This document shows, one piece after another, positions 3,074 to 14,441 of a stretch of DNA of 64,000 nucleotides. The stretch is from Pseudomonas sp. PDM15. GTDB taxonomy: Bacteria > Pseudomonadota > Gammaproteobacteria > Pseudomonadales > Pseudomonadaceae. The stretch is taken from positions 1 to 64,000 of the forward strand of contig NZ_JACVAA010000001.1 in assembly GCF_014851565.1 (NCBI RefSeq). Direction: 5' to 3'. The position numbers were made by a program, and so were the translations under genes. The first letter of the stretch is position 1, and each line of letters begins with the position of its first letter. The notes beneath the pieces were generated by a model. The model did no database searches. It was not told the origin of the DNA and saw nothing but the letters and a program-made list of their open reading frames with translations.

Positions 3074-3091
3074 TTCGTTTGCGCGTGAAGA

Positions 3092-5911
3092 TCAGGCCGG
3101 CTCGGCCTGTTCCTCCTGCACCTTGGCCGTCTCGCGGCGCTTGATGTACTTCCAGTCCGCCTCATCGATGTAGATGCCGTTCGGCCCGCTGCCACCTTCC
3201 AGGTCGATGGCCACAGTGGCCGACACCTGCGGCTTCACCGAGGCGAGGATCGGCACGAAGCCCAGCTGCAGGCTGGTCTCGATCAGCGCCTGCTGGTTGC
3301 GCTCGTCGATGTCCGCCGCCTCGTCGAGGTAGTAGGGCAGGCGCACCTTGCCGGCCTGCTCGCGGTCCATCAGGTGCAGCAACAGGTACATGTTGGTCAG
3401 CGCCTTGATGGTCATCGTGGTGCCGTTGGAGGCGGCGCCGTCGATGTCGGTATGCATCACCGGCTGGCCGCCGACCTTGGTGATCTCGAAGGCCAGTTCG
3501 AACAGGTCCTTGAGGCCCAACTGGTTGTGGTTGGCCGCCACCAGGCGCGCCAGGTACTCCTTGGCTTCCTCGTTCTTCGCGTCCTGATCGCCGCTCTGCT
3601 GCAGATCGAACACCGACAGGGTCTCTCCTTCCTCGTACTGGCCGGCGCTGTGGATGATCTGGTCGATGTGCTTGAGCGCGTCCTTGTTTGGCGCCAGCAC
3701 GATGCGGAAGCTCTCCAGGTTGGACACCTGGCGCTTGTTGATCTCGCGGTTGAACAGGGCCAGCTGATGTTCCAGGTTGTCGTAGTCGCTGCGGATATTG
3801 CGCAGGGTGCGGGCGATATCGGTGACCGCCGCGCGGCGCGCCTTGGCCAGCGTGAGTGCCTCGTCCTGGCGGTGCGCATAGGCGTTGACCAGCAAATGCA
3901 GACGCCGCTCGACGTCGTCCTCGCTGTCGAACTTGGCAACGCCTTTGAGGCGCACCTGGGCGTACAGCGCCTCGATCTGCCCGTCGATGCGCTGCAGCGC
4001 CTGCCAGCTGTCCTGATAGTCGTTGAGCAGCGGCTGCAGGTTGTCCAGCGAGTCGTCGACCGGGTCCATGAACGGCGTGCCGAACGGCAGGTCGGCCGGC
4101 AGCAGCTGGCGGCGGCGCAGGGCGTCTTCCAGGGTGCGCTGCTTGGCTTCCAGGTCGGCCAGTTGCCGGCCCACCAGCTGCAGCTTGGCGGAGAGCTGCT
4201 GCACGCGCTCGGTGAAGGCATCGGCGGCGCGCTTGAGTTCGTCCTGTGCGGCTTCCAGCTGCTCCAGCTGTTCCAGCTTGCTGGCGTCCTCGGCGGACAG
4301 GGTTTGGCAGCGGCGAAAGTCTTCCAGCGCCTTCTGTGCGTCCAGCACGGCCTGGTACAGCTGCTCGGCCTGGGCCTTGCTCGCGGCGCGGTCGTTGGCC
4401 ACCGCCTGCTGGGTCTTCAGTTGCTTGAGCTCGCGCTCCAGACGATCGCGCTGGTCGCGCAGGGCCGCACGGTCGGCCAGGGCCTGCAGGGCCGGTGGCT
4501 CGATGTGCGAGAGGTCAATGGACAGGCCGGGCACTTCGAAGTGGTCGCCTTTGAAGCGATCCAGTACGGCCTCGACCGCCTTGACCCAGTCATCGCCCTC
4601 GGCCTGGATGCCTTTCTCGCCCAGCGGCAGGCTGAACAGCTGGCCGTTGAACAGGCGCATCAGGCGATCCACATCGGCCTGGCTGAACTCCTCGCGCAGG
4701 CGCGAATAGCTGTTGTTGTCGGCGTGGTCGAGCTGCTGCTTGACCGACTTCAGGCGTTTCTCCAGATCGCGCAGGCGCTCGTCCAGATCCTCGGCGGAGA
4801 ACTGCCGCGACTGCGCCAGGGCACCGGCCAGTTCGTCGTGGGCGTCCTTGGCGGCGAGCAGCTGGGCTTCCAGCACCTTCACATCGTCGACCAGGGCGAA
4901 GCGGTTCTTCAGCACCGCCAGCTCGCCCATCCAGCGCTGGATCTCGCTGATCTCGCGCTCCAGGCGCATCAGCTCCTGGGTGCCCCCGCGCTGTTCGTGC
5001 TGCAGGCCGTCCTGCTCGGCGCGGTAGTGCTCGTGCTGGGTCAGCAGCTCGTCACGGCGCGCGCCGGCGTAGTCCTGCCAGGTGCCGAGCAGGTTATCCA
5101 GCAGCGGCGACAGACGATGCAGCTTGCCGCGCAGTATTTCGCGCTGGGCCACGCCAGCGGACAACGCCTCGATCAGCGGGCCGGCGGTTACCAGGGCCTG
5201 GTAGTCCTGCTCCATGCGGCGCACATCGCGGAAGGCTTCTTCGGTGGCGGCGATGTAGTCGACGCTGCCCGAGCGCAGGCTGTGCTCGAAGGCATCGAGG
5301 AACAGCTGCTTGAGCTTGGCCGCAGTGATCTCGCGCATATGCAGCAGGTTGATGAACAGCGCGCGGAAGGTCTTCAGGCTCTGCTCGCTGGTGGAGCGCA
5401 GCGGGATCAGGGTCAGGTCCAGCGGGATCGAGGTATGCCCGCCGACCAGCAGGCGGCGCAGCTCTTCCGGCTTCAGCTCGTAGGCGACGATGCCGGCCTG
5501 GCCGAGGTTGTTGAACAGCTCGCGCTGGCGCAGGCAGGTGCCGTTGCTCTGGTAATGCTGCAGGTCCAGCTCGCCTTGGTAGGCGAAGAACTGGTGGCCG
5601 AAGCCGCCGCCCGGGCCGCGTCCGGCCACGCCGATCACATGGGGGCCGTGGGGCAGGGACACTTCGACGAGGATGTAGCTGGTGTCGCTGGCGAAGTAGA
5701 ACTTGCGCGAGGCTTCCAGGCTGTACTTGCCGAAGCTCATGTCGGACATGCGCGCGAGGATCGGGAACTGCAGGGCGTTGATCGACGCCGATTTACCCAG
5801 GTTGTTGGCGCCGTATACCGACAGCGGGTTTTCCAGCGGGAACAGGCCGAGGCTGTAGCCGGCGGTGTTCAGCAGGGCGAAGCGGCGGATGCCGTAGCGT
5901 TCCTGGCTCAT
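3092..5911 (-). CDS. mksB: MksB, SMC-like ATPase of the MksBEF condensin
   Basis: A MukB-like SMC protein of 939 aa, much shorter than E. coli MukB, as is usual for MksB. The N-terminal head has the Walker A motif GANNLGKS (residues 34-41). Long alternating coiled coils fill about residues 200-700. The C-terminal head carries a signature-like SNGTT segment and the Walker B LDEAAD around residues 862-867. With MksE and MksF it forms a DNA-compacting, loop-extruding complex acting in chromosome segregation. It is the last gene of mksF-mksE-mksB, with its ATG overlapping the mksE stop (ATGA). No mksG/jetD nuclease gene follows, which argues for the housekeeping condensin rather than a Wadjet defence system. 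Confidence 0.9.
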   Translation of the reverse strand: MSQERYGIRRFALLNTAGYSLGLFPLENPLSVYGANNLGKSASINALQFPILARMSDMSFGKYSLEASRKFYFASDTSYILVEVSLPHGPHVIGVAGRGPGGGFGHQFFAYQGELDLQHYQSNGTCLRQRELFNNLGQAGIVAYELKPEELRRLLVGGHTSIPLDLTLIPLRSTSEQSLKTFRALFINLLHMREITAAKLKQLFLDAFEHSLRSGSVDYIAATEEAFRDVRRMEQDYQALVTAGPLIEALSAGVAQREILRGKLHRLSPLLDNLLGTWQDYAGARRDELLTQHEHYRAEQDGLQHEQRGGTQELMRLEREISEIQRWMGELAVLKNRFALVDDVKVLEAQLLAAKDAHDELAGALAQSRQFSAEDLDERLRDLEKRLKSVKQQLDHADNNSYSRLREEFSQADVDRLMRLFNGQLFSLPLGEKGIQAEGDDWVKAVEAVLDRFKGDHFEVPGLSIDLSHIEPPALQALADRAALRDQRDRLERELKQLKTQQAVANDRAASKAQAEQLYQAVLDAQKALEDFRRCQTLSAEDASKLEQLEQLEAAQDELKRAADAFTERVQQLSAKLQLVGRQLADLEAKQRTLEDALRRRQLLPADLPFGTPFMDPVDDSLDNLQPLLNDYQDSWQALQRIDGQIEALYAQVRLKGVAKFDSEDDVERRLHLLVNAYAHRQDEALTLAKARRAAVTDIARTLRNIRSDYDNLEHQLALFNREINKRQVSNLESFRIVLAPNKDALKHIDQIIHSAGQYEEGETLSVFDLQQSGDQDAKNEEAKEYLARLVAANHNQLGLKDLFELAFEITKVGGQPVMHTDIDGAASNGTTMTIKALTNMYLLLHLMDREQAGKVRLPYYLDEAADIDERNQQALIETSLQLGFVPILASVKPQVSATVAIDLEGGSGPNGIYIDEADWKYIKRRETAKVQEEQAEPA

Positions 5912-6612
5912 GCGTCGATCTCCTGGGCTTCACGTTCTTCGGCCATGGCGCGGGCCAGGGCGTCTTCTTCGCTTTCCTCTACAGCCACGTCAGCGACGGG
6001 TTCGATGATCACGATGTCCTCCTCGCTGTCATCGGCAACCAGCACCGGCGTCGGCAGCGGCAGAGCGCTGTGCAGGCTGGCAGCCAGGTCGCGGTCCTGC
6101 TGCACGGCCAGGCACACGTCGAGGAAGCGGTGCATCGGTGCGAGGAAGCGGTACACGCCGTTGTCCTCGCTGGCGAAGCCGAGTTGGATCAGGCGGCGCA
6201 TGACCTTCTCTTCCAGCTCGTCCTGGGTGGTGACTTCGGCCTGCAGGAACAGGTCCTTGTACTTCTCCAGCAGCGGCGGCAGCTCGTCGCGGCCGAGGCT
6301 GCCGCCGTCGAGCACGGCCAGCGGGTCGCGGCCCTGGTCGGCGAGGTGCTCGACCAGGATGAAGGTGAACAGCGCCAGGCGCTGGGCGGTCTTGTTGACC
6401 TGGGCGCCCATCTGCTCGGGGACGAAGTAGTAGAAGCCGCGGGTGTCGCAGGTCAGCTCGTAGCCGAGCGACTTGAACAGCGCGCGGTACTGGTCCTGCA
6501 GGTTGGACAGCTGGGTATACAGCTCAGGGTCGCGGCGGCTGATGTGGTAGCCCTTGAACAGCTCGCGGAAGATCGGCGCCAGCTGGGTCAGTTCTTTCAG
6601 GTCGATATTCAT
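5908..6612 (-). CDS. mksE: MksE, condensin accessory (KITE) subunit
   Basis: A 234-aa protein in the MukE position, between the kleisin and SMC genes, with 4-nt ATGA overlaps on both sides that imply translational coupling. MukE-like proteins are paired winged-helix subunits that bind the kleisin. The first ~190 residues fit this; the last ~45 are acidic (several EE and DD pairs), a likely flexible tail. Assignment rests on the operon order and on general resemblance to MksE. Confidence 0.85.
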   Translation of the reverse strand: MNIDLKELTQLAPIFRELFKGYHISRRDPELYTQLSNLQDQYRALFKSLGYELTCDTRGFYYFVPEQMGAQVNKTAQRLALFTFILVEHLADQGRDPLAVLDGGSLGRDELPPLLEKYKDLFLQAEVTTQDELEEKVMRRLIQLGFASEDNGVYRFLAPMHRFLDVCLAVQQDRDLAASLHSALPLPTPVLVADDSEEDIVIIEPVADVAVEESEEDALARAMAEEREAQEIDA

Positions 6613-7859
6613 GCGGTGGTGGTCCCGGCCGGCTTGATCAGGGCGTAGGAGCTCAGGCTGACCTGATGCTCGCGGGTGAGGTAGTCGCGGCGCTCGAGGC
6701 GCTCACGCTGGAAGCGGCTGTCGCGTGACAGGCGCGAGAACCAGTAGAGCAATTCGTCGGTGGCGCCGTTGGGCTCCTGGTCCAGCAGCCAACCCATCAG
6801 GTCCGGCAGCGGCAGGGCCTGCTCGCAGCGCTCGATCATCTCGCGGGCGGTGCGTGGCGCGCGTTGCGGCTCGCCCTTGCGCGTGCCGCTGGCCTTGGGG
6901 AATTGCGACGGCTTGGGCTCGAAGCGGGCGAGGGCGTAGACGTACGCCTCGACCTGCGAGGCGGTGCCGAGGAAGGTGCTCTGCGGGCGGCTGTGCAGCG
7001 GCAAGGATGCCTGCGGCACGGCGTCCAGGCCCTTCTTGCGGATCGCCGCCAGGGCCAGCGCCGCACCACGGGTCACGGCGTTGTGCCGGCGCGCTTCTTC
7101 GCGCAGCGGCAGCAGCAGCTCGCGGGCCTTGCGCAGGGTCAGCTGGGCAGTGGTCTGCATTTCCAGGATGCGCGCATGGGTGCGCAGCAGCAGGTCGTCG
7201 TCGACCAGCTGGCCGAGGCGCTGCTGTTCGCCGAGCAGCTTGAGCAGCGCCTGTTCGACACGGCGCACGCCCTGTTCGAAGGCGCCATCTGCGGCGACCA
7301 GCTGGATCATCGGCTCGACGTATTCGTCCCAGGTCGCCAGTACTTCGGCGTAGCGCTGGCGCAGCGGAATCTGTCGGTCGCTGGTCTTGGCCCTTTCGGC
7401 CACGCCGATCAGCGCCTGCTCGTCGTTGCCGAGCTTTTTCAATACATCGCGCACGCGCATGTCGAGCAGGCGCAGCTGGCGCGCCAGGTCGTTGCCGTCA
7501 CGGACTTCGAAGGCGTCCTGGATATAGCCGGCTAGGCGCTCCAAGTGGCGCAAGTAGGCTTCGATCTCTAGGCACAGGCCGAGGCGGTGCTCGCGGCGCA
7601 GGTAGGCGAGGAAGTCGTGGATCTGCGCGTTCAGCTCGAAGCGGTTGGGGCTCTTGGCCACCGGCACCAGGATATCCAGGCGGATCCACTGGTCGAGCAG
7701 GGCGGTGATGTCGGCAGGGCTGCCCTCGGGCAGTTGCGCACCGAGCTGGTTGCGCAGCTCGATCAGGCTCAGGGTGCCGGCATCGAAGCGCTCGCACAGC
7801 GGTTCGAGCAGCGTCCAGTGCTCGGCGAGGGCGCGCAAGACGCGCTTGGGGTCAATCAT
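6609..7859 (-). CDS. mksF: MksF, condensin kleisin subunit
   Basis: A 416-aa kleisin-type subunit expected to bridge the MksB heads and bind MksE. It is the first gene of the three-gene operon and overlaps mksE by 4 nt. The N-terminal ~100 residues look like a winged-helix domain, followed by long helical stretches, as in MukF/MksF. The promoter must lie in the 148-bp space shared with the divergent holD. The ATG at 7859 has no strong Shine-Dalgarno sequence, so the start is less certain than the function. Confidence 0.85.
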   Translation of the reverse strand: MIDPKRVLRALAEHWTLLEPLCERFDAGTLSLIELRNQLGAQLPEGSPADITALLDQWIRLDILVPVAKSPNRFELNAQIHDFLAYLRREHRLGLCLEIEAYLRHLERLAGYIQDAFEVRDGNDLARQLRLLDMRVRDVLKKLGNDEQALIGVAERAKTSDRQIPLRQRYAEVLATWDEYVEPMIQLVAADGAFEQGVRRVEQALLKLLGEQQRLGQLVDDDLLLRTHARILEMQTTAQLTLRKARELLLPLREEARRHNAVTRGAALALAAIRKKGLDAVPQASLPLHSRPQSTFLGTASQVEAYVYALARFEPKPSQFPKASGTRKGEPQRAPRTAREMIERCEQALPLPDLMGWLLDQEPNGATDELLYWFSRLSRDSRFQRERLERRDYLTREHQVSLSSYALIKPAGTTTA

Positions 7860-8007
7860 TGGGGCATCCGTTCGCTGGCTGCTTTCTTATAAAGCGCGGA
7901 ATTGTACTGCAAAGGTGCGCAGCTGGCCGTCACGCCCATCGGCCTTTTCCCGGGGGCCGATTCAGGCCACAATTCGTGCCTGATTCCGCCTTGTCTGGAA
8001 GCCTCTC

Positions 8008-8805
8008 TTGATCGAAGAAGTCCGCCGCCGTGCCTATCTGACCGCCATGCAGGTGGCCAGCTGGCTGCCGCGCGTGGGGCTGCCGTTCGCCGCGCCGTCG
8101 CGCGCCGAGCTGCTGCAGCCGCAGCCCGAGCCGGAAGTCGCATCCGCCGCGCCCGTGGTGCCCGTGGCAGCGCCGGTGGTCGAGGCCAAGGCGCCGGTCG
8201 AGCCGCAGCGCCCGGTCATCGAAGTACCGCGCCCCTCGGCCGCGTCCAAGGTATTCGCCAAGCCGGAGGCCAAGGCCGAGCCGGAAGAGGCGCCGGTCGC
8301 CGAGGTCAAGCCGGTGGTACCGCCACCACGCTTCGCCCTGCAGCTGCTGCGCGCCGGCGACTGCGCCCTGCTGGTCGAGCTGGCCACGGGCGAGCCCTTC
8401 CAAAGCCGCGACCCTTCCTATCTATTGCTCAAGGACCTGCTGCGCGCCGCCGGCCTGCCGGACGCCCCGCAGCAGGTTGGCGACGGCTCGCCGATCCGCT
8501 GGCCGCTGCTGTCGCGCGGCAACCTCGATCAGGGCCCCGAAGCCGCTCGCGATTACGTCCAGGGCGTGCTCGCCGGCCAGCTGGAAAGCCAGCCCTGCAG
8601 CTGCCTGTGGCTGATCGGCCTGCCGGCCGTGCGCTTCGCTGGCGAGGCGGACGAGGAGGCCTACAACCGCGAGCTGCAGGTCGAAGGCCTGGGCGCCGCC
8701 TGGGCGCTGCCGAGCCTGGAGCTGCTGATGGACGAGCCGCAGCGCAAGGCTGAGCTGTGGCGCGCCATGCGCCGGCTGATGCCGCGCTGGAAAGCCTCGG
8801 CATGA
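8008..8805 (+). CDS. holD: Probable DNA polymerase III psi subunit (cryptic HolD)
   Basis: A 265-aa protein with a short helical N-terminus (1-30), an Ala/Pro/Glu-rich linker (about 35-108) and a globular C-terminus (about 110-265). Pseudomonad psi subunits are known to be highly diverged and to sit directly upstream of rimI, as holD does in E. coli. This gene overlaps rimI by 4 nt (ATGA). In the clamp-loader complex psi links the tau/gamma ATPases to chi (HolC, also in this window at 39341-39757). The start is a TTG; an ATG at 8047 is the alternative. Position and architecture support the call more than sequence identity. Confidence 0.65.
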   Translation: MIEEVRRRAYLTAMQVASWLPRVGLPFAAPSRAELLQPQPEPEVASAAPVVPVAAPVVEAKAPVEPQRPVIEVPRPSAASKVFAKPEAKAEPEEAPVAEVKPVVPPPRFALQLLRAGDCALLVELATGEPFQSRDPSYLLLKDLLRAAGLPDAPQQVGDGSPIRWPLLSRGNLDQGPEAARDYVQGVLAGQLESQPCSCLWLIGLPAVRFAGEADEEAYNRELQVEGLGAAWALPSLELLMDEPQRKAELWRAMRRLMPRWKASA

Positions 8806-9254
8806 GCGGCGCCATCAGCTTCCGCCCGATGACCGAGGCGGACCTGGACCGCGTGCTGCAGATCGAGAACGCCGCCTTCAGCCACCCGTGGAACCGCAAC
8901 CTGTTCGCCGATGGCCTGAAGTCCTACGACTGCTGGGTGATGTTCGACGGCGACGAACAGGTCGGCCACGGCATCATCCAGGTGATCATCGACGAGGCGC
9001 ACCTGCTCAACATCACCGTGCGCCCGCAGAGTCAGGGCCGGGGCCTCGGTCTGCTGCTGCTGGAACACCTGATGCGCCGGGCGATGCAGCTCAAGGCCGG
9101 CGAATGCTTCCTCGAAGTGCGCGCCAGCAACCAGGGCGCCTACCGCCTGTACGAGCGCTACGGCTTCAATGAGGTCGGCCGGCGCCGCGATTACTACCCG
9201 GCCGCCGGCGGCCGCGAAGACGCCTTGGTAATGGCCTGCACCCTGATCGACTAG
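8802..9254 (+). CDS. rimI: RimI, ribosomal protein S18-alanine N-acetyltransferase
   Basis: A GNAT-fold acetyltransferase of 150 aa that modifies the N-terminal alanine of ribosomal protein S18. The acetyl-CoA-binding motif QGRGLG is at residues 78-83, and the ENAAFSHPW segment near residue 22 is typical of RimI. The ATG at 8802 overlaps the holD stop; longer readings into holD are less likely because this start matches the E. coli RimI length of 148 aa. The holD-rimI pairing is conserved across gammaproteobacteria. Confidence 0.92.
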   Translation: MSGAISFRPMTEADLDRVLQIENAAFSHPWNRNLFADGLKSYDCWVMFDGDEQVGHGIIQVIIDEAHLLNITVRPQSQGRGLGLLLLEHLMRRAMQLKAGECFLEVRASNQGAYRLYERYGFNEVGRRRDYYPAAGGREDALVMACTLID

Positions 9255-9932: not shown

Positions 9933-10832
9933 GTGCCACGCGCGCAACTGCTGGCCTGGCTCGGGTTGGCCCTGGCCAGCCTGTTCTGGGCCGGTAACTC
10001 GCTGGTAGCGCGGGCCTTCACTGGCGCCATCCCGCCATTCTCCCTGGCGTTCTGGCGCTGGGCCGTGGCCCTGATGATCCTCCTGCCGCTGGTCGGCCCC
10101 TCGCTCTGGCAGCATCGCCAGACGCTGCGCAACTCCGGCTGGCGCCTGTGGTTCGCCGCGCTGCTGGCCATCACCCTGTACAACGTCCTGCTCTACACGG
10201 CGGCGCTGAGTACTGCGGCGATCAACCTGAGCCTGGTCAGCACCTGCCTGCCGCTGGCCACTTTTATTGGCGCGGGCCTGCTGCTGGGGGAATGGCCGGC
10301 GCGGCGCGCCTGGGTCGGCCTGGGATTGGCGCTGGTCGGCCTGCTGTGGCTGATCGCCCAGGGCAACTGGCAGGTGCTGGCCAGCCTGTCCTTCGCCAAG
10401 GGTGACCTGCTGATGGTGCTGGCCACCCTCGACTGGGCGTTGTACTCGCTGTTGCTGCGCCGCTGGAGCGCGCATTTCCAGCTGCCGCCCTTCACCCTGC
10501 TCGGCGCCCTGGTACTGATCGGTTTGCTGATGCTGGCGCCGTTCTATGCCTGGGAACTCTGGCAGGGGGCGCAATTCGAACCCAGCCTGCCCAACCTCGC
10601 CGCCATCGGCTACACCGCGCTGTTCGCCTCGGTGCTGGGCTACCAGTTATGGAACATCGGCCTGCGCGAACTGGGCGCCGCGCGCACGGCCATGAGCAAC
10701 TACCTGATGCCGGTATTCACCGCCATCCTCGGCTGGGTGCTATTGGGTGAAAGCCTGCAGACCTACCACTGGGTAGGCGGCGCGCTGATCGTCAGCGGCC
10801 TGCTGCTGGCCGGGCGCGGGCAGAGCCGCTAG
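9933..10832 (+). CDS. EamA-family (DMT) transporter
   Basis: An inner-membrane drug/metabolite transporter family protein of 299 aa with about ten hydrophobic helices arranged as two EamA repeats (about residues 10-140 and 150-290). The substrate cannot be told from sequence. The GTG at 9933, directly after the can stop, gives the usual N-terminus PRAQLLAWLGLALASLFWAG; earlier in-frame starts would lie inside can. It is probably the last gene of the rimI-can unit. Confidence 0.85.
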   Translation: MPRAQLLAWLGLALASLFWAGNSLVARAFTGAIPPFSLAFWRWAVALMILLPLVGPSLWQHRQTLRNSGWRLWFAALLAITLYNVLLYTAALSTAAINLSLVSTCLPLATFIGAGLLLGEWPARRAWVGLGLALVGLLWLIAQGNWQVLASLSFAKGDLLMVLATLDWALYSLLLRRWSAHFQLPPFTLLGALVLIGLLMLAPFYAWELWQGAQFEPSLPNLAAIGYTALFASVLGYQLWNIGLRELGAARTAMSNYLMPVFTAILGWVLLGESLQTYHWVGGALIVSGLLLAGRGQSR

Positions 10833-10836
10833 GCGC

Positions 10837-11043
10837 TCAAGGCGCGGTGATCTGCAGCCCACTCAGGGCCAGCTTGACGAACAACCACCAGCCAGCGGCG
10901 CTCAGTACGCCCAGCACCGAGTAGCCGACCACGATGCCCAGGGCGATCTGCTTCCACAGCCCGGCGTAGTTCTGGCTGGGCGTACTGGAGCGGTGCAGCG
11001 GCACGTCGCGCTCGGCGCGGATGTTCTCGAAGTTGTCTCTCAT
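10837..11043 (-). CDS. Small single-pass membrane protein of unknown function
   Basis: A 68-aa protein with a charged N-terminus (about residues 1-30) and one hydrophobic helix (about 33-60). It ends 4 bp from the convergent EamA gene. High-GC codon use matches the core genome, so it belongs to the host rather than to the low-GC segment that begins upstream of it. No function can be assigned. Confidence 0.65.
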   Translation of the reverse strand: MRDNFENIRAERDVPLHRSSTPSQNYAGLWKQIALGIVVGYSVLGVLSAAGWWLFVKLALSGLQITAP

Positions 11044-11180
11044 GGTGGTGTCCGGGTGTGGGCAAATGCTGGAGTGGTGGCTCAGGCCAATAGAGCAGCC
11101 GAATGCGTAGGGGCTATGTAGTCACTCGTCAAGGTGCCTATTGTAGGATGCTGGATTCTACCGCCGCTGGGAGGTGAGTA

Positions 11181-12137
11181 ATGGGGCGAGAAGCAATTCC
11201 CGCAGAGATTAGGCGAGCTGTATTGGTCGAGGCTGGGCATCGATGTGCAATACCTAGGTGCGGTGAGACAGAGCTAGATGTCCACCATATTGTTCCTTGG
11301 GAAACGTGCCAAAAGCATGAGTATTCTAATCTTATAGCCTTGTGTGTGATATGCCACCGTCGAGCACATAAAGGAGATATAGATCGGAAATCATTATTTC
11401 AATATAAGGCCGCTTTGGCATCGAATGCCGGCCCAATGGCAAGAATAGGCTTTGACTCTCCTGTGATAGAGATTCGCAGAAGAATATCTGAGGTGTCCGA
11501 GGGGTATAAGTTCGAATTTGATTTCCCAGATTTCCCGGGCCCTGCCCAGAGAGTGGTTTCCAAGAACATTGAAGCATGGGGGAATGAATTATTAGTTCAC
11601 TTTCGTTCAAGTAGTTTTTTGGAGGATGAGGCTGAGGCAGATTTAGTCGGTGGCGATGTGGAGGCACTTTCTCGCTTGCCGCATCGGCTTACAGGAGGCT
11701 ATAGAGTTGTTCGAAACGATTCTGGTGTAATTAGCCTCGAATACAAGCTGCACTATTTTTACAGCGGAGCCGCGCATGGTGGAATAGAAACCCGTGTTCA
11801 GAATTTTTTGGTGAACCCTTTTCGTCCAATTACTGTTATTGATCTCTTGGCTGATGGAAAATCTATTGAGGATCTGGCCGGCCTTATTCGAGGAAAGCTT
11901 CGTGCCACTGGCTACTATGACGAAGAGTGGATGATGGGAGGAACAAAACCTACGGAGGAAAACTATTCGCGATTCTTGATTTGTAATTATGGTATTGAGT
12001 TTGTTTTTGAAGAGTATCAGATAGCCTCTTATGCTGACGGCCGGCAAAGTTTGTTTTTGGATTTCTATCAGTTAAAAGAAGTTTGTGATGTTGATCTGCT
12101 TGATAGGCTTCAAGATCATGATAATTATGATTGGTAG
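11181..12137 (+). CDS. HNH endonuclease fused to a DUF3298/RsiV-like C-terminal domain
   Basis: A 318-aa protein. Residues 20-66 form a complete HNH nuclease site: zinc cysteines C22, C27, C55, C58, the HH pair at 35-36, N50, H59 and H63. Residues ~95-318 resemble the extracytoplasmic PdaC/DUF3298 fold seen in RsiV. There is a central strand with the YSGAAHGG hallmark (about residues 194-201) and a C-terminal segment with FEEYQIASYADG followed by a strand and helix. No signal peptide or membrane segment is present, so this domain would be cytoplasmic here. GGAGG lies 6 nt before the ATG. Codon use is clearly AT-richer than in the neighbours, and an integrase remnant lies downstream, which points to transfer. 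A defence or DNA-damage role is possible but unproven. Confidence 0.75.
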   Translation: MGREAIPAEIRRAVLVEAGHRCAIPRCGETELDVHHIVPWETCQKHEYSNLIALCVICHRRAHKGDIDRKSLFQYKAALASNAGPMARIGFDSPVIEIRRRISEVSEGYKFEFDFPDFPGPAQRVVSKNIEAWGNELLVHFRSSSFLEDEAEADLVGGDVEALSRLPHRLTGGYRVVRNDSGVISLEYKLHYFYSGAAHGGIETRVQNFLVNPFRPITVIDLLADGKSIEDLAGLIRGKLRATGYYDEEWMMGGTKPTEENYSRFLICNYGIEFVFEEYQIASYADGRQSLFLDFYQLKEVCDVDLLDRLQDHDNYDW

Positions 12138-12258
12138 TGAGGTCGTCAAGGGTCTCGATGAGATAAGCGGTAGTCTGTTCATGAAGTGCACTGCTGTTGC
12201 CACTGAGATTCTGAGCTTGCGTTAGTTTATTAAGTCTTTGATCTTGGCTCTTAGGTAA

Positions 12259-12450
12259 TGTTGTGCAGCAGTGACGCACACCTTCGGCAGCCACTACATG
12301 ATGGCGGGATGCAGCATTCTTGGTTTGCAGCGCATTCTGGGGCACTCCTCAATCGCGATAACTATGCGCTACGCACACTTTTCATCGGATTATTTGGAAT
12401 CGGCGCTTAGATTGTCTCCACTTCAACAAGCCAGATGCCGGGTTACTTGA
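12259..12450 (+). pseudogene. Remnant of a phage-type tyrosine integrase (C-terminal end)
   Basis: The frame beginning at 12259 reads like the last ~60 residues of a phage integrase: a THTFGSHYMMAG segment, then LQRILGHSSIAITMRYAHF with the conserved GH and the catalytic Tyr in MRYAH. Intact relatives have THVLRHTFASHF, so four residues including the catalytic Arg appear to be missing, which corresponds to a 12-bp deletion. A stop lies just upstream (12256-12258) and no N-terminal part is present. It is therefore a non-functional scar of an integrated element next to tRNA-Met. The stretch 12138-12258 before it shows no recognisable gene. Confidence 0.75.
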
Positions 12451-13006
12451 AGATCCGGTTGGGGTTCTCTAGCGGGCGGTGTTCTTTGTCAGTGCCCGTA
12501 AATGATGAGCGGTACTGGATGTGCTGAACGATATATCCAAAGTGCCATTCGCGGACATAGAGGATATAAGAACCACGGCTGGGGAATTTCGAGAACTCCT
12601 CAGGCGTTACGCATATATGATTCGAGAACGCGGGTTTGAGCAGGGGACCGCCCATCCGCTGCTTACATCCTTTCCGTTTAGGAGGCAGTTTCTCGAGCGT
12701 TTCGACCCGGGTCCGATCAGTGCCGATGATGAAAGTCGCGATGTAGGGAAGGCCGCTCACTGTGGCGGGCATTATGAATATGTAGCTGATGAACGGAGCG
12801 ACAAGCCAGTGTGCAAGCTTCTTAATAAATGACTTGTTTGGGGCTCGATAGATCTGCCGCCAGAAGAACCAGACAACGGGAATCGAAGCTAGGAAGGTAA
12901 AGGCTTTGCTGAATAGGGACCAGCCACTGGTAGGAATGAAGTCAGCCCATATGCCAACCAAGGCTAGGGCTAAGACGATTACCAGACTAGCTGCTTTGGG
13001 CTGCAT
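12443..13006 (-). CDS. Uncharacterised membrane protein of the low-GC segment
   Basis: A 187-aa protein with hydrophobic helices at about residues 6-22, 33-49 and 65-93 (the last possibly a hairpin) and a soluble, basic C-terminal half (about 98-187). Its stop overlaps the end of the integrase remnant by 8 nt in convergent orientation. Base composition is lower in GC than the core genes. No family was recognised. It is either cargo of the element that left the integrase scar or a resident gene next to tRNA-Met. Confidence 0.6.
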   Translation of the reverse strand: MQPKAASLVIVLALALVGIWADFIPTSGWSLFSKAFTFLASIPVVWFFWRQIYRAPNKSFIKKLAHWLVAPFISYIFIMPATVSGLPYIATFIIGTDRTRVETLEKLPPKRKGCKQRMGGPLLKPAFSNHICVTPEEFSKFPSRGSYILYVREWHFGYIVQHIQYRSSFTGTDKEHRPLENPNRIFK

Positions 13007-13085
13007 CCAGCTTCATCCTTGAGTTGCCTTGGGTTTCAGCGGTTTAGGGGGGTAGATGGGGCGTATCTATTGGCCAGAAACGACA

Positions 13086-13109
13086 AAGGGCTAGCTTTCG
13101 CTAACCCTT
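13086..13109 (-). terminator. Terminator of tRNA-Met
   Basis: The stem AAGGGTTAGC / GCTAGCCCTT (one mismatch) with a GAAA loop lies 10 bp beyond the 3' end of the minus-strand tRNA and is followed by a T-rich stretch on that strand. Confidence 0.7.
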
Positions 13110-13118
13110 CGTTTTGTA

Positions 13119-13195
13119 TGGTGGCTACACCGGGACTTGAACCTGGGACATCAGCATTATGAATGCTGCGCTCTAACCGACTGAGCTATGTAGCC
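13119..13195 (-). tRNA. tRNA-Met (CAT), elongator
   Basis: The reverse strand folds as a 77-nt tRNA with the CCA end encoded. The 5' GGCTACA pairs with 3' TGTAGCC, and the anticodon stem CAGCA / TGCTG encloses TTCATAA, giving anticodon CAT. The GGTTCAAGTCC T-loop is intact. The 5' end has an ordinary base-paired first position, so it is the elongator rather than the initiator. The low-GC segment with its integrase remnant lies immediately beyond its 3' side, the usual side for integration. Confidence 0.96.
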
Positions 13196-13307
13196 GAGTG
13201 GCGCGCATTATTCTCTTGTCGGCTTGGGCTGTCAACCCCGTTTGGCGGACAAATTGATTCGTTATCAAGCGCTTAGGCTCGACGGGGGAGGGCGCTTGGC
13301 GGATGTG

Positions 13308-13333
13308 AAAAGCCCCGCGATTGCGGGGCTTTT
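13308..13333 (-). terminator. Terminator of the pth-ychF transcript
   Basis: A perfect 11-bp stem, AAAAGCCCCGC / GCGGGGCTTTT with a GATT loop, lies just after the ychF stop on the minus strand, with a T-run on both strands. Confidence 0.88.
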
Positions 13334-13340
13334 GAGGGGC

Positions 13341-14441
13341 TTAGACGTTGAAGCGGAAGTGCATCACGTCGCCGTCCTTGACGATGTATTCCTTGCCTTC
13401 CAGGCGCCATTTGCCGGCTTCCTTGGCACCGCCCTCACCCTTGAACTGGATGAAGTCGTCGTAGGCCACCACTTCGGCGCGGATGAAGCCTTTCTCGAAG
13501 TCGGTGTGGATCACGGCGGCGGCCTGCGGGGCGGTGGCGCCGATGCGTACGGTCCAGGCGCGGACTTCCTTCACGCCAGCGGTGAAGTAGGTCTGCAGGT
13601 TGAGCAGGTCGTAGCCGGCGCGGATAACGCGGTTCAGGCCCGGCTCTTCCATGCCCATGGACTCGAGGAACATCTGCTTCTCTTCGTCTTCGTCCAGCTC
13701 GGCGATCTCGGCCTCGATCTTGTTGCACACCGGCACCACGACGGCGCCTTCTTCCTCGGCGATGGCGCGGACCACGTCGAGGTGCGGGTTGTTGTCGAAG
13801 CCGTCTTCGGCGACGTTGGCGATGTACATCACCGGCTTGCTGGTGAGCAGGTGGAAGCCGCGGATGACCAGCTTCTCGTCGGCGCTCATGTTCTTCATCA
13901 GGCTGCGCGCGGGCTTGCCTTCGCTGAAGTGGGGGATGAGCTTCTCGAGGATGGCTTTCTGCGCCAGGGCTTCCTTGTCGCCGCCCTTGGCGTTGCGGGC
14001 GACCTTCTGCAGTTGCTTCTCGCAGCTGTCGAGGTCGGCGAAGATCAGTTCGAGGTCGATGATCTCGATGTCGCGTTTAGGATCGACGCTGTTGGCGACG
14101 TGGATGACGTTTTCATCCTCGAAGCAGCGCACCACGTGGGCGATGGCGTCGGTCTCGCGGATGTTGGCGAGGAACTTGTTGCCCAGGCCTTCACCTTTGG
14201 AGGCGCCCGCCACCAGGCCGGCGATGTCGACGAACTCCATGGTGGTGGGGATCACGCGCTCGGGCTTGACGATAGCGGCCAGGGCGTCCAGGCGGCTGTC
14301 AGGCATGGGCACGATGCCGCTGTTCGGCTCGATGGTGCAGAAGGGGAAGTTCTCCGCGGCAATACCGGATTTGGTGAGGGCGTTGAACAGGGTGGACTTG
14401 CCGACGTTGGGCAGGCCGACGATGCCGCAGTTGAATCCCAT
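13341..14441 (-). CDS. ychF: YchF (OLA1-type) ribosome-binding ATPase
   Basis: A translation-associated P-loop NTPase of the Obg superfamily that prefers ATP and is sensitive to redox state. The 366-aa protein shows the G1 motif GLPNVGKST (residues 9-17), the variant G4 NKIEAE that replaces the GTP-specific NKxD, and a C-terminal TGS domain that ends in the MHFRFNV tail. It is the last gene of the minus-strand rplY-pth-ychF run, which is conserved in many bacteria. Confidence 0.96.

Follow-up and report, generated by a model that had tools for sequence, protein, structure and literature searches.

What might a bacterium do with a seemingly cytoplasmic protein in which an HNH nuclease is joined to a domain whose fold, DUF3298/PdaC, is known to us solely from outside the cytoplasm? 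The question is raised by a single gene in the window, that is, the whole stretch of 64,000 nucleotides from Pseudomonas sp. PDM15 that was analyzed here. The gene and the parts of its product are as follows.

11181-12137, forward strand: HNH-DUF3298 fusion gene, 318 aa (open frame and Pfam)
11170-11177, forward strand: Shine-Dalgarno-like GGAGGTGA, 3 bases 5' of the ATG (read by eye)
11181-11429, forward strand: HNH nuclease head, residues 1-83 (Pfam HNH and fold match to the Cap5 HNH domain)
11463-12122, forward strand: PdaC/DUF3298 domain, residues 95-314 (Pfam, profile against the PDB, fold match)
11766-11783, forward strand: loop G196-A-A-H-G-G201, where RsiV has its lysozyme-binding loop (alignment)
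12012-12041, forward strand: EYQIASYADG (278-287), the second conserved loop (alignment; Y279 lies opposite Y255 of RsiV)

The protein contains no hydrophobic segment, the maximum 19-residue Kyte-Doolittle mean being 0.95, and neither a signal nor a membrane segment is visible, in agreement with an earlier, sequence-only reading of this DNA, which had also given the position and length of the open reading frame correctly.

The HNH head

By its fold and signature residues, the N-terminal head is a nuclease domain, predicted to cleave DNA. Pfam HNH (PF01844) is matched over residues 21-64 with 36.0 bits, against a cut-off of 21.4, and the complete HNH site claimed from the sequence is indeed there: all eight residues named (C22, C27, H35, H36, N50, C55, C58 and H59) are present in the window protein and identical in 24/24 full-length sequences of the fusion (see below). 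We take C22, C27, C55 and C58 to be the zinc cysteines, and H35-H36, N50 and H59 to provide the His-Asn-His. The NCBIfam, PADLOC and PHROGs libraries match the head alone, up to residue 77 (for PHROGs, in the best 25 of 26 matches), and the net charge of the head is positive in all 24 fusions.

In structural alignments of the head with VIA-align, the HNH domain of P. syringae Cap5 comes first (Z 10.3 to 10.2; 10.3 over 86 residues), followed by Asticcacaulis Cap5 (9.7), IscB (8.8), EcoKMcrA (8.6) and ScoMcrA (8.5). As modeled, the head is structurally closest to the defense nuclease Cap5 among the matches listed, by a small margin, Cap5 being ahead of IscB and McrA by about 1.5 Z units, that is, within 2. 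By sequence against solved structures, EcoKMcrA is the best match (E 5.7e-7), and both McrA and IscB beat Cap5, to which the similarity is marginal (E 0.08-0.6). Like the fusion protein, Cap5 of CBASS (HNH-SAVED) has a zinc-type HNH head at its N-terminus and a ligand domain at its C-terminus, the latter being DUF3298/PdaC in the fusion but SAVED in Cap5. EcoKMcrA and ScoMcrA have the HNH domain in common with the fusion, but theirs is C-terminal and is combined with other recognition domains.

Short, widespread proteins, mostly of 165-171 aa (most of loci L038-L055, as well as L095-L098, four proteins on IMG/VR viral contigs), carry this head as well, with up to 77% identity over residues 3-79. 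The last ~85 aa of these proteins are, by eye, winged-helix-like, not DUF3298, and in the three that were scanned (L038, L042, L057), Pfam gave no second domain above its cut-off. Other C-terminal parts again are joined to the head in L046, L017 and L018. Given that several C-terminal partners are found on one head, the head appears to be modular, with DUF3298 being one partner among them.

The C-terminal domain

The second half of the protein matches Pfam DUF3298 (PF11738) over residues 221-293 with 32.5 bits, against a cut-off of 24.1. PdaC/DUF4163 (PF13739) remains below its cut-off over residues 106-200 (21.2 against 29.1 bits, E 6.4e-4); nevertheless, the fold match covers the PdaC-equivalent part. 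A C-terminal profile built from 20 relatives and run against PDB sequences recovers 3s5t (E 1.5e-12), RsiV (5jen, 1.5e-8) and 3cyg (3.3e-8), more weakly MPT64 (2hhi, 6e-4) and 4e72 (5e-3), and nothing else in the PDB up to E 10. The AlphaFold model made from 46 sequences reaches a mean pLDDT of 89 (7 sequences gave only 56), the linker, residues 85-94, being modeled with low confidence. Foldseek searches with this model return six matches at 0.001 or better, every one of them a DUF3298-type chain; among predicted viral structures, there is no match at E 0.001 or better. VIA-align of residues 92-316 gives Z scores of 18.9 for 3cyg, 16.4 for 3s5t, 15.9 for 4e72 and 15.4 for RsiV, PDB families missing from these matches not being counted as absent. 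Structure prediction thus bears out the DUF3298/PdaC fold that had been proposed from the sequence, and the domain, profile and fold matches jointly imply that both halves of the protein are real and complete. The chains 3cyg, 3s5t and 4e72 (PA4972) share with it both the fold and the GGAHG form of the loop, and MPT64 (2hhi) shares the fold more weakly (Z 6.5), but all these chains are without an HNH head.

An AHGG motif had been singled out as the hallmark of this fold. It is present, at residues 198-201; A198 is kept in 23/24 fusions, H199 in 24/24, G200 in 18/24 and G201 in only 10/24, so that the true hallmark is G-x-A-H. Notably conserved C-terminal residues are G196 (23/24), A198 (23), H199 (24), Y279 (24), A285 (23) and G287 (24). 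The net charge over residues 95-318 of the window protein is -16, and the C-terminal domain is acidic in 23/24 fusions, with a mean of -10. An acidic C-terminal domain next to a positive head speaks against DNA binding by the former, and we know of no DUF3298/PdaC relative that binds DNA.

In a class-wide search, the C-terminal profile matches 18/369 genomes, the window's own among them. After removal of L121, which has an internal stop, 16 of the 17 non-window proteins were left to be read for export signals, and 16/16 of these stand-alone relatives carry an apparent Sec or lipoprotein signal, as judged by eye, with no predictor. The 24 fusions start straight at the HNH head. It would seem from the sequences that, in the fusions, an envelope-type domain has moved inside the cell. 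Two proteins, L125 and L126, combine an apparent export signal with a DUF3298 half and an NlpC/YiiX-like hydrolase half, the latter recognized by eye.

Comparison with the lysozyme receptor RsiV

The DUF4163/PdaC plus DUF3298 fold is common to the window protein and RsiV (5jen), an anti-sigma factor and lysozyme receptor. Unlike RsiV, the window protein has neither a membrane segment nor a sigma-binding part, and carries the HNH domain in residues 1-83 instead. Table 2 of PMC5014341, a source used here in excerpt, gives 16 contact residues for the RsiV-lysozyme complex, including E163, T165, Q166, A167, S168, S169 and T171 of the first loop and Y255, E256, G260 and Y261 of the second; in the same excerpts, Rv1980c (MPT64) is described as having a similar fold without lysozyme binding (PMC5014341). 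Our assessment covers the 11 contacts in the two loops, with E88, S93, K137, H139 and D225 outside the count. In the profile alignment, 2 of these 11 are kept in the window protein, A167 (A198) and Y255 (Y279), the RsiV residue numbers being our reading of the alignment against the table of that paper and the loop alignment being uncertain. Little is kept of the lysozyme loop E163-T171, the first loop of RsiV being replaced by the G-A-A-H-G of the DUF3298 class, whereas Y279 aligns with the lysozyme-contacting Y255. Because the fold and the position of the saddle are common to both proteins but the contacts are mostly replaced, the specificity of RsiV seems not to be shared, and lysozyme sensing via RsiV's own contacts is disfavored. 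The description of the domain as RsiV-like, which had been given from the sequence, calls for correction: this is a domain of the DUF3298/PdaC class in general.

Distribution and evolution of the fusion

The architecture had been read from one gene, and it recurs. A search of the genus at E 1e-12 matched 11/398 genomes (own included), seven with full-length proteins and four with the head only, and a scan of genome contigs gave 76 loci, namely, 19 full-length (L019-L037), 22 strong head-only (L038-L059) and 35 weaker HNH loci (L060-L094). Two of the genus hits are on the same contigs as L024 and L032 and were counted once, so that the set comprises 24 full-length copies, found in several phyla and in mostly unrelated surroundings. 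Their hosts belong to Pseudomonadota, Thermodesulfobacteriota, Fidelibacterota, Verrucomicrobiota and Acidobacteriota; for each of the three phyla named last, there is a single MAG contig, which could have been assigned to the wrong bin. In the tree of these proteins, the window protein is the sister of the one from Alloalcanivorax (100/99), the Desulfoluna protein is the sister of the one from Nitrosomonas (100/99), and the Pseudomonas copies are spread over separate clades; the long rows L034, L036 and L037 are placed unsurely. The fusion gene is horizontally transferred.

Whole-gene dN/dS (Nei-Gojobori) is 0.06-0.16 in 8/9 close pairs, the ninth pair being saturated; in the same eight pairs, the head taken separately gives 0-0.10 and the C-terminal part 0.05-0.18, dS above 1 making the figures rough in four of the eight. 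In the pairs examined, both halves are under purifying selection. The searches of mobile elements recovered the head alone: no relative of the window protein was found in phages; plasmids yielded no full-length copy, with head matches only in 2 records; and viral contigs gave nothing with the single protein as the query and head matches only, at 13 loci, with the alignment as the query. In searches of the open-licence PMC literature, no characterized protein with the HNH-DUF3298 architecture was found, and within that literature, the earlier statement that none was known stands. The fusion is thus real, it recurs and it is mobile, and the literature searched gave no description of it.

The insertion site

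At the locus itself, the fusion gene stands out, with a GC content of 0.446, GC3 of 0.386 and CAI of 0.154, whereas in none of the 50 other window genes, called with our own script, does GC3 fall below 0.729 or CAI below 0.488; the low-GC, transferred character that the sequence-only reading had attributed to the segment is thereby confirmed. The segment and its surroundings contain the following features.

11055-13073, no strand: variable low-GC segment, cargo absent in the relative G012 and replaced by other DNA in the relative G013
12259-12450, forward strand: C-terminal fragment of what is, to judge by its motif, presumably a tyrosine integrase (HTFGSHYMMAG...RILGHSSIAITMRYAHF; open frame; aligns with the G013 fragment)
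12443-13006, reverse strand: hydrophobic ORF of 187 aa, without a function by match, inside the low-GC segment (open frame)
13119-13195, reverse strand: tRNA-Met (CAT), near the right edge of the variable segment

The site comparison rests on two relatives, 3/38 genomes (own included) having matched the left-flank gene. In G012, the homolog of the 68-aa flanking gene, the tRNA-Met and a YchF-like gene follow in succession, with no cargo and with ~170 bases between the homolog of the 68-aa gene and the tRNA. In G013, similarity to the left flank extends to position 11054 of the window, and ~3.6 kb of different DNA follow before the tRNA; the integrase-like fragments beside the tRNA in the window and in G013 (L137 8114-8410) align. 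The empty site in G012, the other cargo in G013 and the integrase fragments jointly point to a place that has been used for insertion, with the fusion gene as acquired cargo, and the tRNA-Met site is a small insertion hotspot. Flanking direct repeats of at least 14 bases, as expected of attachment sites, were not found. What was found, then, is a variable place together with a codon adaptation index outside the range of the other window genes, rather than a fixed place with core-like codon use.

Several further observations concern the site. In G012, a stretch of ~165 bases with the tRNA-Met (L138 5820-5984, corresponding to window 13074-13239) is inverted, with the flanking genes keeping their orientation. 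The cargo of G013 (L137 4715-8322) is mostly low-GC, with short ORFs and the integrase-like C-terminal fragment. The ORF at 12443-13006, which has no match in four libraries (Pfam, NCBIfam, PADLOC and PHROGs), may or may not be a real gene. An Rfam scan of 10800-13400 gave 5 matches, only the tRNA reaching the gathering score, and a non-coding RNA partner was rejected on these grounds. Promoter-like sites number 6, against 2.9 +/- 1.5 in shuffles, with five on the reverse strand, one within the fusion gene and none upstream of the fusion gene on its own strand; there are 2 terminator-like sites, against 2.0 in shuffles.

Neighboring genes and defense

The ORFs, called with a crude script of our own, number 335 around the 24 loci, of which 170 are no more than 5 kb away and no shorter than 130 aa; of these, 146 were scanned, and the count of neighbors is not an unbiased rate because the other 24 (the window's 11 and 13 mostly core-looking ones at L032, L035, L036, L108 and L109) were left out. 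The controls are the first 146 of 185 ORFs from 20 Pseudomonas regions, that is, 16 regions, the last in part. At E 1e-10, PADLOC families number 144 in the 146 neighbors against 36 in the 146 genes of arbitrary regions, a gap that shrinks once it is considered that one cyclase or reverse transcriptase can hit dozens of models at once and that candidate defense genes also occur among the controls, with strong matches to PDC-M07, HEC-01A and AbiLi. Two ATPase-type models, mad3 and AriA, have more matches in the control genes than in the neighbors. UzuA and PDC-S52 are also among the models matched by the neighbors; cyclase models, among the matches listed, hit 1/146, at L020, the window's 11 being outside the tally. 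Measured against this rough control, the association with defense genes is suggestive only.

Individual PADLOC scans covered 32 neighbors of our own choosing, many of which matched nothing, and found matches at E 1e-8 or better near 9/23 non-window copies, a figure that, given this choice, should be read as a minimum for those loci rather than as a rate. The matches are PDC-S60 at L019, a CBASS cyclase and 2TM effector at L020, PDC-S49 at L022, PDC-S11 at L024, PDC-M68A/HNH at L026, a type IV retron reverse transcriptase with a 2TM protein at L031, the latter ending 60 bp upstream of the copy, a caspase-domain protein matching PDC-S65 and ending 40 bp upstream of the copy at L034, HEC-03B/NsnB at L109, and an ATPase with Ppl/mad3-like matches at L111. 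Beside the fusion gene in the window, no cyclase and no defense gene was recognized by eye.

The arrangement at three of these loci can be described more closely. The cyclase, the 2TM effector and an ATPase of L020 occupy 4225-8933, within 6 kb upstream of the HNH-DUF3298 gene, and the ATPase (4225-6165) is probably GajA, to judge from the neighbor tally. In L026, the second HNH protein (5438-6145), ~4 kb from the fusion gene, matches the PDC-M68A and Cap5/SAVED-HNH models. In L034, the caspase gene (3090-4634), the HNH-DUF3298 gene (4674-5591) and a further ORF 9 bp after it possibly form an operon.

A conserved operon partner was rejected, the widest neighbor cluster extending to only 5/24 loci and the others to at most 3. 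This widest cluster is an ORF of ~102 aa, present at one common site in L024, L108 and L109 and at 2.1 and 4.1 kb in L031 and L111. At most of the Pseudomonas loci that align, DNA similarity ends at the gene or within ~100 bases of it; in the pair L030/L110, ~240 upstream bases are also alike, and L024, L108 and L109 lie at a common site. Similarity that ends at the gene, together with the lack of a wide neighbor cluster, suggests that the fusion moves as one gene.

Proposed function and alternatives

We propose, giving it roughly even chances, that the fusion is a one-gene system, a cytoplasmic DNA nuclease gated by a ligand and most likely an effector directed against phages or other mobile elements, that spreads as moving cargo; it is a good candidate for a one-gene defense effector. 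The two conserved loops, GxAH and EYQIxxYAxG, would let the acidic C-terminal domain bind its ligand, probably some protein produced in the course of infection. Binding would rearrange or oligomerize the HNH heads, in the way that a ligand bound to SAVED acts on those of Cap5, and the activated nuclease would then degrade phage DNA, cell DNA or both. In the excerpts of PMC8568899 used here, Cap5 is described as a dimer formed via the HNH domains, in which 3',2'-cGAMP bound by SAVED activates DNA degradation, with the HNH domain first and the ligand domain second (PMC8568899). The order of the parts is the same in the fusion and the ligand domain is another one, so that activation of the HNH head by a ligand is proposed by analogy.

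The relationship of the head to EcoKMcrA, the closest solved structure by sequence (Z 8.6 in the structural comparison), would also suit a restriction-type nuclease, akin to the type IV enzyme McrA, whose head cuts incoming DNA and whose C-terminal domain reads DNA or its modification without a separate ligand, and the C-terminal parts of the head's cousins (most of L038-L055), winged-helix-like by eye, are consistent with such a role. However, the C-terminal domain is acidic in nearly all fusions, its relatives seem to be exported, and the related RsiV binds a protein. No known modified-DNA recognition domain was found, Pfam recognizing only DUF3298 and PdaC outside the head and PADLOC nothing, and we regard restriction as unlikely. 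HNH proteins are common in phages, as the PHROG matches attest, and the window copy adjoins an integrase fragment and a tRNA-Met, which is what a mobility or housekeeping nuclease of an integrating element, engaged in homing, DNA processing or recombination, could look like; but the DUF3298 part would then be merely structural, whereas the C-terminal domain is under purifying selection and the copies mostly lie in unrelated surroundings, which makes such a role clearly unlikely.

The apparent export of the stand-alone relatives could instead point to a nuclease toxin that is delivered to rivals or released on lysis, with the PdaC-like domain helping to bind the wall of the target cell; the HNH fold is also found in a pyocin nuclease (4uhp), which the head matches weakly (E 0.007), and the L022 copy lies near a protein resembling, by eye, a contractile-tail sheath. 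Yet neither a signal nor a hydrophobic segment is present in the window protein, its nuclease is N-terminal and not C-terminal, and no small gene recurs at a constant adjoining place, so that we consider a toxin very improbable. That PdaC/RsiV-type domains act at the cell wall, as indicated by the name of PF13739 and the excerpts of PMC5014341, would agree with an effector of stress or cell-wall damage, in which muropeptides or a misplaced envelope protein trigger growth arrest by the nuclease, without any link to phages; but a gene as rare and patchy as this one, with 7 full-length copies in 398 genomes of the genus, and with defense-like genes near several copies, makes this reading quite improbable. 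Within the preferred reading, a ligand-gated defense nuclease, one can conceive of a more specific scenario, which we hold to be unlikely as well: a cytoplasmic immune sensor derived from an envelope receptor fold, the DUF3298/PdaC domain associated with lysozyme and peptidoglycan, would sense the endolysin or lysozyme-like enzyme of a phage before lysis and destroy DNA first, with GxAH and EYQIxxYAxG forming the binding saddle and with contacts unlike those of RsiV.

Implications

If the fusion is indeed a ligand-gated nuclease, a nuclease of the Cap5 kind could have its C-terminal ligand domain replaced by an extracellular receptor domain, and defense would gain a nuclease gated by something besides a cyclic nucleotide. 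A cytoplasmic job would also be added to the roles of the DUF3298/PdaC fold. The fusion gene is small, solitary and conserved, and its function is, therefore, directly approachable.
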